NCBI RefSeq assembly: GCF_000379625.1 | Contig: NZ_KB903247.1 | Coordinates: 62,001 to 126,000, forward strand | DNA: 64,000 nucleotides | Direction: 5' to 3' | From: Actinomycetospora chiangmaiensis DSM 45062 | GTDB lineage: Bacteria > Actinomycetota > Actinomycetes > Mycobacteriales > Pseudonocardiaceae | Shown here: positions 43,567-46,095 of the stretch, in pieces | Position numbering within the stretch: the first letter of the stretch is position 1 | How the letters are laid out: the number at the start of each line of letters is the position of its first letter | Program-made: the position numbers and the translations under genes | Notes under the pieces: model-generated | Databases searched by the model: none | What the model was told of the DNA's origin: nothing | The model's input: the letters and a program-made list of their open reading frames with translations, nothing else

Positions 43567-44829
43567 CTAGATCCCGAGGGCCTCGCGGACGGCCTTCGAG
43601 GTCGCGGGCACGGTGGCCTTCGGGCCGACCTGGTGCTCGATGGCGTCGAGGGTCTTCAGTCCGTCGCCGGTGATGAGCAGGACGGTGTCCGCGTCGGGGT
43701 CGAGCTGCCCGGTCTCGACGAGCTTCTTCGCGTTCGCGACGGTCACGCCGCCCGCAGTCTCGGCGAAGACACCCTCGGTGCGGGCGAGCAGGCGGATGCC
43801 GTCGCGGACCTCGTCGTCGGTCACGTCGGTGACCGCGCCGCCGGTGCGGCGGACGGTGTCGAGCACGTAGGGGCCGTCCGCCGGGTTCCCGATCGCGAGC
43901 GAGCGGGCGATCGTGTCCGGCCGCTGCGGGCGGACGACGTCGGTGCCCTCGCGGAAGGCGGTCGACACGGGGGAGCAGCCCGCGGCCTGGGCGCCGAAGA
44001 TCTTCCAGTCGGCGCCGTCGACGAGGCCGAGCGAGACCAGCTCGCCGTACGCCTTGTCGATCTTCGTGAGCTGCGAGCCCGACGCCACGGGGATCACGGT
44101 CTGCGCCGGGATGCGCCACCCGAGCTGCTCGGAGATCTCGTAGCCCAGGCTCTTCGAGCCCTCGGCGTAGTACGGGCGCACGTTGACGTTGACGAACGCC
44201 CAGTCCTCCTGCTCGAACGCGAGCTCGGTGGCGAGGCGGTTCACGTCGTCGTAGTTGCCCTCGACGGCCAGCAGGTTCGTGTCGTACACCGCGGTCATGA
44301 GGACCTTGGCCCGCTCCAGCGAGGAGGGGATGAGCACGACCGACTCCCACCCGGCGCGGGCGGCCGCGGCAGCGGTGGCGTTGGCCAGGTTCCCGGTGGA
44401 GGGGCAGGCCAGGACCGTGAAGCCGAGCTCACGGGCGGCGGCGAGCGCCACGGCGACCACGCGGTCCTTGAAGGAGTGCGTCGGGTTGCCGGTGTCGTCC
44501 TTGACCCAGAGGTTCCGGATGCCGAGCTCGGCGCCGAGGCGGTCGGCGCGGATCAGGCGGGTGAAGCCCGGGTCCATGTTCGGGTGGTCCTGCACCGTGG
44601 TCGGCACCGGCAGGAGCTTCTGGTACCGCCAGATCGACTTCGGACCGCGCTCGATCTCCTCCCGGGTGATCGACGGGAAGTCGTAGGCGATCTCGAGGGG
44701 ACCGAAACACTGCGGACACGCGAACTCCGGGGCCAACGGGGTGCGGTGGCCGCAGGCGCGACACGAGAGGGCGGCGGCCGGGCCGAGGTCATAACCGGTC
44801 GACGTCTGGTCGGGCGCAGTCAGGGTCAT
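43567..44829 (-). CDS. thrC: Threonine synthase
   Basis: PLP enzyme converting O-phosphohomoserine to threonine; 420 aa. An N-terminal zinc-ribbon-like segment (CRACGHRTPLAPEFACPQC) precedes the fold-type II core. The PLP lysine is in NPTHSFKDRVVAVA, with the phosphate loop ACPSTGNLANATAA and VIPVASGSQLTKI. ATG 44829 is preceded by GAGGAG at 11 nt, and that Shine-Dalgarno overlaps the closing helix of a SAM riboswitch (44844-44954), so SAM probably represses its translation. It is alone on this strand between comEC and holA. Confidence 0.96.
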   Translation of the reverse strand: MTLTAPDQTSTGYDLGPAAALSCRACGHRTPLAPEFACPQCFGPLEIAYDFPSITREEIERGPKSIWRYQKLLPVPTTVQDHPNMDPGFTRLIRADRLGAELGIRNLWVKDDTGNPTHSFKDRVVAVALAAARELGFTVLACPSTGNLANATAAAAARAGWESVVLIPSSLERAKVLMTAVYDTNLLAVEGNYDDVNRLATELAFEQEDWAFVNVNVRPYYAEGSKSLGYEISEQLGWRIPAQTVIPVASGSQLTKIDKAYGELVSLGLVDGADWKIFGAQAAGCSPVSTAFREGTDVVRPQRPDTIARSLAIGNPADGPYVLDTVRRTGGAVTDVTDDEVRDGIRLLARTEGVFAETAGGVTVANAKKLVETGQLDPDADTVLLITGDGLKTLDAIEHQVGPKATVPATSKAVREALGI

Positions 44830-44843
44830 GGAAGAGTGTTCTC

Positions 44844-44954
44844 CTCATCTTCCCCGCGTGTCGCGGGTCGGAATTGGCACCGGTCTTGCGCACGGACGTG
44901 CGCCGCCGGTTGCCGGGGTGTCGTCGGGCCGTTCCCTCTACCCCTCTGGATGAG
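44844..44954 (-). promoter_or_regulatory. SAM (S-box, SAM-I type) riboswitch in the thrC leader
   Basis: Read on the minus strand, the leader has every S-box mark in order: P1 strand CTCATC, the kink-turn purine block AGAGGGAACGGCCCGACGA, CCCCGGCAACCGG, an extended P3 hairpin (GCGCACG/CGTGCGC), GGTGCCAATTCCGACC, P4 hairpin CCCGCG/CGCGGG, then GGGGAAGATGAG closing P1 (CTCATC with GATGAG). The P1 3' strand (44849-44844) shares three bases with the Shine-Dalgarno GAGGAG (44846-44841), so ligand-stabilised P1 would block ribosome binding. No terminator hairpin lies between it and the ATG, which supports translational control. Confidence 0.9.
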
Positions 44955-45093
44955 CCGTATTCGGTTGTGGGCGCCGCGCGGGTCGACACCCGCGGTCGCG
45001 CTACGGGCACGTTACGGCACCCGGAGCACACGAGGCCACAGCCGGACGCGTTGCCCACGCCACGCTGTCGGGGGGCGGTGCGAGGATGAGGAC

Positions 45094-46095
45094 GTGCCAC
45101 CCCGCGCCCGCAGCAGGCCCGCCGACGAGCTCGTGCCGGTGCGGCTGGTCGTCGGCGACGAGGGCCTGCTCGTGGAGCGCGCCGTGTCCACGGCGATCAC
45201 CGCGGCCCGCCGTCAGGACCCGGACGTCGAGGTCCGCACCCTCAAGGCCAACGAGATCACCGCCGGCGTGCTGGCCGAGCTCGTCAGCCCGTCGCTGTTC
45301 GCGGAGTCGCGGGTGGTGGTGCTGGAGGCGGCGCAGGACGCGAACGCCGAGGTCACGACGGTGCTGGTGGAGTACGCGAAGGCGCCGACCGACGGGGTGG
45401 CGCTCGTCGTCGTGCACCCGGGCGGCGCGAAGGGCAAGGCCCTGCTCGACGGGCTGAAGAAGGCCGGCGCCGCCGTGAGCGAGGCGGCGAAGTTCAAGCC
45501 CTGGGAGAACGACCGGCGGGCCGACTTCGTCCGCAACGAGATCCGGCAGGCGGGCGGCGGCATCACGGGGGAGGCCCTGAGCCTGCTCATGGAAGCGGTC
45601 GGGGCCGACCTGCGCGAGCTCGCCGCGGCCGCCTCGCAGCTGGTCAGCGACTCCGGCGGCCAGGTCGACGCCGAGTCGGTCCGCCGCTTCCACCGCGGGC
45701 GCGCCGACGTGACGGGGTTCGCCGTGGCGGAGAAGGCGGTGTCGGGCGACCGCGCGGGTGCCCTCGAGGCGCTGCGGTACGCCCTCGACACCGGCGTGCC
45801 GCACGTGCTGGTCGCCGACGCGCTGGCCGACGCGGTGCGCACCATCGCCCGGGTGTCGGCGGCGGGGCGGGGCGACCCGGGCGCGCTCGCGAGCCGGCTG
45901 CGGATGCCGCCGTTCAAGGTGAAGAAGGCGATGGGCCAGGCGCGCGGATGGGACGCGCCGGGCCTCACGCGCGCGATGGCGCTCGTCGCCGACGTCAACG
46001 CGGACGTCAAGGGCGTGGCCGCGGACGCGTCGTACGCCCTGGAGCGGGCCACCTCGGAGCTGGCGGAGCTCGCCGGGCAGTCGCGCCGGCGCTGA
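45094..46095 (+). CDS. holA: DNA polymerase III delta subunit
   Basis: Clamp-loader subunit of 333 aa. Visible features: an N-terminal RLVVGDEGLLVERAVSTAI segment, the SPSLFAESRVVVLEAA block typical of HolA, AKFKPWENDRRADFVRNEI, a mid-domain with EAVGADLRELAAAASQLV, and a C-terminal helical collar (LRMPPFKVKKAMGQARGW). The same frame is open far upstream, but that part is antisense to thrC. GTG 45094 is six bases after GAGGAT, a possible leaderless start. Convergent with rpsT. Confidence 0.93.
   Translation: MPPRARSRPADELVPVRLVVGDEGLLVERAVSTAITAARRQDPDVEVRTLKANEITAGVLAELVSPSLFAESRVVVLEAAQDANAEVTTVLVEYAKAPTDGVALVVVHPGGAKGKALLDGLKKAGAAVSEAAKFKPWENDRRADFVRNEIRQAGGGITGEALSLLMEAVGADLRELAAAASQLVSDSGGQVDAESVRRFHRGRADVTGFAVAEKAVSGDRAGALEALRYALDTGVPHVLVADALADAVRTIARVSAAGRGDPGALASRLRMPPFKVKKAMGQARGWDAPGLTRAMALVADVNADVKGVAADASYALERATSELAELAGQSRRR

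Follow-up and report, generated by a model that had tools for sequence, protein, structure and literature searches.

A canonical SAM-I riboswitch very probably controls translation of a metM gene in Actinomycetospora chiangmaiensis DSM 45062 by masking the Shine-Dalgarno (SD) sequence in its closing helix P1; the enzyme is predicted, by orthology to the published MetM, to convert O-phosphohomoserine to homocysteine, and SAM binding and the direction of control are likewise predicted. In the proposed mechanism, plentiful SAM would stabilise P1, hold the start of the SD in a helix and block ribosome loading; when SAM is low, P1 would open and the MetM-type enzyme would be made. This threonine-synthase-like PLP enzyme would draw O-phosphohomoserine from the threonine branch into homocysteine for methionine. 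The preliminary description of this DNA had placed a SAM-I riboswitch on a threonine synthase gene; its RNA part holds, while the gene name does not, as the protein belongs to a metM-type clade.

Architecture and conservation of the riboswitch

When the whole 64,000-nt stretch (the window) was searched with cmscan, a sole match passed the gathering thresholds of Rfam 15: RF00162 (SAM), on the minus strand at 44956-44842 (75.1 bits, gathering score 44.4 bits, E 8.8e-16, model positions 1-108 of 108; Table 1). The covariance model therefore agrees with the preliminary description, which had read the S-box core elements in order on the minus strand and had the closing helix overlap the ribosome-binding site (RBS) by three bases. 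That overlap is 3 nt when GAGGAG is counted and 2 nt for AGGAG. The ATG lies at 44829, with 12 nt between it and the aptamer match, and the region 44700-45150 contains no terminator-like site; on these two features terminator-type control was rejected. Translational control, proposed from the start, is supported by the SD-P1 fusion, by the lack of a terminator-like site, and by a published SAM-I type whose P1 stem carries the RBS in its 3′ side (PMC2258182). As described in the available portion of that source, the published type shares with the window element a full-length aptamer, an RBS at the 3′ side of P1 and an occurrence in Actinobacteria, and nothing that defines it differs here, SAM binding by the window element being predicted. 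Judged by its sequence, the element is a genuine SAM-I riboswitch whose mechanism is ordinary.

Table 1 Features of the leader and metM-type gene in the window
Feature	Position	Strand	Basis
metM-type gene (annotated as threonine synthase; 420 aa, PLP enzyme)	43567..44829	-	ORF, PALP, NCBIfam thrC models, clade
SAM-I (S-box) riboswitch aptamer	44842..44956	-	RF00162; same element at 43/43 related lineage loci
P1 5′ strand CUCAUC	44949..44954	-	Rfam alignment; identical in 44/44 leaders
P1 3′ strand GAUGAG	44844..44849	-	Rfam alignment; identical in 44/44 leaders
Shine-Dalgarno AGGAG, first two bases within P1	44841..44845	-	sequence
Candidate -10 element TAACGT, upstream of aptamer	45009..45014 (45014-45009)	-	leader alignment
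Possible competing hairpin GGAAGA/UCUUCC around the Shine-Dalgarno, unproven	44830..44853	-	fold and shuffle control, 44 leaders

Upstream of the aptamer, a sigma-70 scan found no consensus promoter. An alignment of 23 of the 43 related leaders with the window revealed a TAnnnT element in 24/24 leaders, 25-80 nt ahead of the aptamer (a count without shuffle control), suggesting that the transcript includes the aptamer.

At all 43 Actinomycetospora/Pseudonocardia loci surveyed, one of them from a Pseudonocardiales MAG, the orthologue has the aptamer immediately upstream; a 44th locus (L073), encoding a 32%-identical Acidobacteria protein, is without it. The P1 strands, GGCTCATCC on the 5′ side and GATGAGGA on the 3′ side, are identical in all 44 lineage leaders, window included, and P1 itself therefore provides no covariation support. 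AGGAG follows P1 in 42 of these 44 leaders and AGGA in the other two (L036 and L039), and the aptamer match ends 5-14 nt from the start codon. In the wider class, an SD-like motif is found within 6 nt of P1 in 28/28 leaders and overlaps P1 in 12 of them; this set comprises 28 of 29 leaders, L102 being excluded because its assigned start lies inside the aptamer.

In the window and the 43 related leaders, the bases separating the SD from the start codon can pair with the J4/1-P1 3′ strand more extensively than their shuffles, with a mean longest stem of 5.37 vs 4.04 for shuffled sequences (0/2000; 27 unique leaders, kinship ignored). The stem has just 3-4 pairs, the shuffle level, in 12 of the 44 leaders. 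This competing hairpin, which would carry the SD in its loop and exclude P1, may represent the SAM-free form; in its minimum-energy fold, the window leader has P1 formed without ligand.

Identity of the downstream gene

The window protein contains a PALP domain (Pfam) and passes the NCBIfam threonine synthase model TIGR00260 (263.6 bits vs a cut-off of 167.1), and it scores 266 against NF006050, under the cut-off of 303. Threonine synthases rank first among its solved relatives by sequence, and the best-matching of these align to it from residue 63 or later only. The 5.86-Mb genome (31 contigs; closest named relatives Actinomycetospora, 97-98% identity) encodes a second ThrC-like protein, about 34-35% identical to the window protein, within a hom-thrC-thrB cluster. 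No SAM match was found in the 12-kb stretch around this cluster, where the sole Rfam match is an L31 leader.

A quick tree built from 95 proteins, in which the placement of long branches (L122, L073 and others) is unsure, has a branch with a support of 100 between two groups: the window protein with 72 relatives, and 21 other ThrC-like proteins of class genomes, including the ThrC of the same genome. Within this tree the window protein groups with carrier-linked relatives from the class (65-73% identity). Across the 73 metM-type proteins, 156 positions are invariant, and an N-terminal Cys4 motif (C23, C26, C38 and C41) and the SFKDR lysine K121 are conserved throughout.

Across the class, 118 genomes were sampled, A. 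chiangmaiensis included, with counts that ignore relatedness. A metM-type gene, called at E 1.5e-112 or better, is present in 88 of them, and each of these 88 genes has a SAM-I match upstream in the same orientation, at a distance of 12-288 nt from where the protein match begins; among the lower-scoring ThrC-like matches listed for class genomes, 0/62 have a SAM-I upstream. Of the 97 SAM-I matches, 88 in class genomes sit on metM, the search having used stricter filters by which weak matches can be lost. SAM-I matches without metM were recorded in G002, G021, G027, G056 and G071, those of G002 and G071 below the gathering score.

The A. chiangmaiensis genome carries a second SAM-I riboswitch outside the window (52 bits; L010:6739-6834, equivalent to C30:182738-182833). 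It precedes two genes for NtaA/DmoA-family FMN monooxygenases (TIGR03860), beyond which lie ABC-transporter-like permease ORFs, and the operon looks like one for sulfur scavenging.

The separate hom-thrC-thrB cluster, the distinct SAM-I-linked paralogue, the carrier gene that often follows it and its probable correspondence to MetM make it most likely that the S-box stands on a methionine gene after all. By sequence, the window gene is most likely metM, encoding a homocysteine enzyme that supplies the methionine precursor, and the label 'threonine synthase' a misnomer. Against the metM reading stand the absence of an adjoining carrier, the presence of metX, metY and a cystathionine gamma-synthase elsewhere in the genome, the TIGR00260 match, the pairing of only 2-3 nt of the SD in P1, and a P1 that folds ligand-free.

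Hasebe et al. are reported to have found in 2024 that MetM of Streptomyces, a threonine-synthase homologue, converts O-phosphohomoserine to homocysteine with the help of the carrier MetO. The available portion of PMC12172450 recounts their identification of MetM as a homocysteine synthase and notes a SAM riboswitch upstream of S. albulus metM. As far as it is described there, Streptomyces metM is like the window gene in its threonine-synthase-like enzyme, the separate ThrC of the organism and the upstream SAM riboswitch, whereas the window gene is without an adjoining metO-like carrier and its genome also has metX-metY. According to excerpts of PMC8079986, RF00162 precedes SLIV_16930-SLIV_16925 of S. 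lividans TK24, listed under threonine biosynthesis; as in the window, SAM-I stands before a unit labelled threonine biosynthesis, but that unit has two genes and the window a single one. We infer that SLIV_16930-SLIV_16925 is metM-metO.

SCO4293 'thrC' and SCO4294 are listed among sulfate assimilation genes (PMC2267785), and ArgR binding has been reported upstream of the SCO4293 'threonine synthase' of S. coelicolor (PMC3293853); if SCO4293 is metM, arginine and SAM regulation would meet on one gene. In Bacillota, SAM riboswitches occur on hom1 and T-boxes on thrC (PMC12452182), and the available text of a 2005 comparison of actinobacteria reports that the operons for threonine or methionine lacked conserved RNA structures upstream (PMC1262725). 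Both a SAM-I on metM and an RBS inside P1 are already published.

Sulfur carriers and other routes to homocysteine

A CysO-like gene lies directly downstream of metM in 20 of the 29 class loci searched, its product 50-61% identical to the CysO of A. chiangmaiensis, and a linked carrier gene follows metM in at least 58 of the 88 class genomes with metM. A metO-like carrier is absent beside the window metM, where the next gene is convergent. At the 44 related loci, a tblastn search with the three A. chiangmaiensis carriers gave nothing significant (best E 0.052; locus L068 ends inside the gene). The genome encodes three ThiS-family proteins: CysO, flanked by a JAB-domain protein and a CysM-like protein and with PDB matches that include 3dwg; one protein in a locus with a TPP riboswitch; and a third, MoaD-like protein (C29). 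The last was rejected as MetO, as it matches MoaD models, all below cut-off, and has no significant match beside metM.

The A. chiangmaiensis genome also encodes metY-metX, a second O-acetylhomoserine sulfhydrylase-like protein and a cystathionine gamma-synthase, and metM is therefore not its only route to homocysteine, the presence of metX and metY ruling this out. No Rfam match was found in the metY-metX stretches searched. Within the class sample, metX and metM are distributed in a complementary manner (metM only 48, both 40, metX only 26, neither 4; Fisher p 8.7e-5), with metX counted by TIGR01392 at E 1e-70 or better and metA and other acyltransferases left out. The curated TIGR01392 cut-off is passed by 0/118 genomes; the A. 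chiangmaiensis MetX passes NF047917 and NF001209. The genomes with neither a metM-type gene nor a metX match are G007, G010, G069 and G071.

CysO, CysM and Mec form a cysteine pathway of actinobacteria, to which the A. chiangmaiensis gene order JAB protein-cysO-cysM corresponds, as does the similarity to its CysO of the carriers found beside metM elsewhere. Among the matches listed, 30 metM genomes have no linked carrier, and 12 of these 30 also have no metX match. In all 8 genomes examined of those 12, the sole CysO-like match among those listed lies between a Mec-like gene and cysM or a cysM-like gene, an arrangement that leads to the proposal that CysO also feeds MetM. We advance the fuller version tentatively, as having perhaps slightly under an even chance: Pseudonocardia, Actinomycetospora and several other actinomycete families would use MetM without a dedicated MetO, taking sulfur from CysO, and SAM-I would then set the split of CysO-bound sulfur between homocysteine and cysteine, giving A. 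chiangmaiensis a SAM-gated second route beside metX-metY. More broadly, no gene for the sulfur donor adjoins metM in this lineage, and the donor is probably CysO or free sulfide; MetM may also draw on free sulfide or another ThiS protein. In the literature searched, which covered few subscription papers and for which CysO was not a query, neither metM without metO nor CysO serving MetM is described. The occurrence of metM without a linked carrier in Pseudonocardia/Actinomycetospora, in A. chiangmaiensis alongside metX-metY, is mildly new.

Discussion

The preliminary description had put thrC under SAM and so tied threonine output to methionine status. This idea, that the genome has two genuine threonine synthases and that SAM sets the threonine output of the one in the window, would explain why the protein passes the TIGR00260 cut-off and why threonine synthases come first among its solved relatives, but we regard it as very unlikely. 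The hom-thrC-thrB cluster lies elsewhere without a SAM match, the window protein belongs to a separate clade, SAM-I is found on 88/88 metM-type genes and 0/62 of the others among the matches listed, and a carrier gene stands downstream in at least 58/88. SAM control of threonine synthesis was rejected on these grounds. It is also quite improbable that the metM-type enzyme of Pseudonocardia/Actinomycetospora has shifted towards a different SAM- or sulfur-linked product: the missing linked carrier and the presence of metX and metY in the genome would fit such a change, yet the protein groups with carrier-linked relatives, the invariant positions include the Cys4 motif and K121, and the riboswitch is kept at 43/43 lineage loci.

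A different question is how the aptamer acts. With only 2-3 nt of the SD paired in P1, a possible competing hairpin around the SD, and overlap of SD and P1 in just 12 of the 28 wider-class leaders, it could operate mainly through mRNA stability or Rho-dependent termination and not through SD masking. We consider this unlikely, since the SD is fused to P1 in 44/44 lineage leaders and lies within 6 nt of it in 28/28 wider-class leaders, 44700-45150 holds no terminator-like site, and the RBS-in-P1 type is described in the available portion of PMC2258182.

With metM under translational control by SAM-I as the preferred reading, SAM control of threonine synthesis disappears as an apparent exception, and the gene is probably misnamed. 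With metM as the most likely identity of the gene, the switch resembles conventional feedback control of methionine synthesis. This raises the question of the carrier from which MetM receives its sulfur when metO is unlinked. Every metM-type 'threonine synthase' in the class sample has a SAM-I upstream, and actinomycete annotation and pathway models that read thrC at these genes therefore need correcting.
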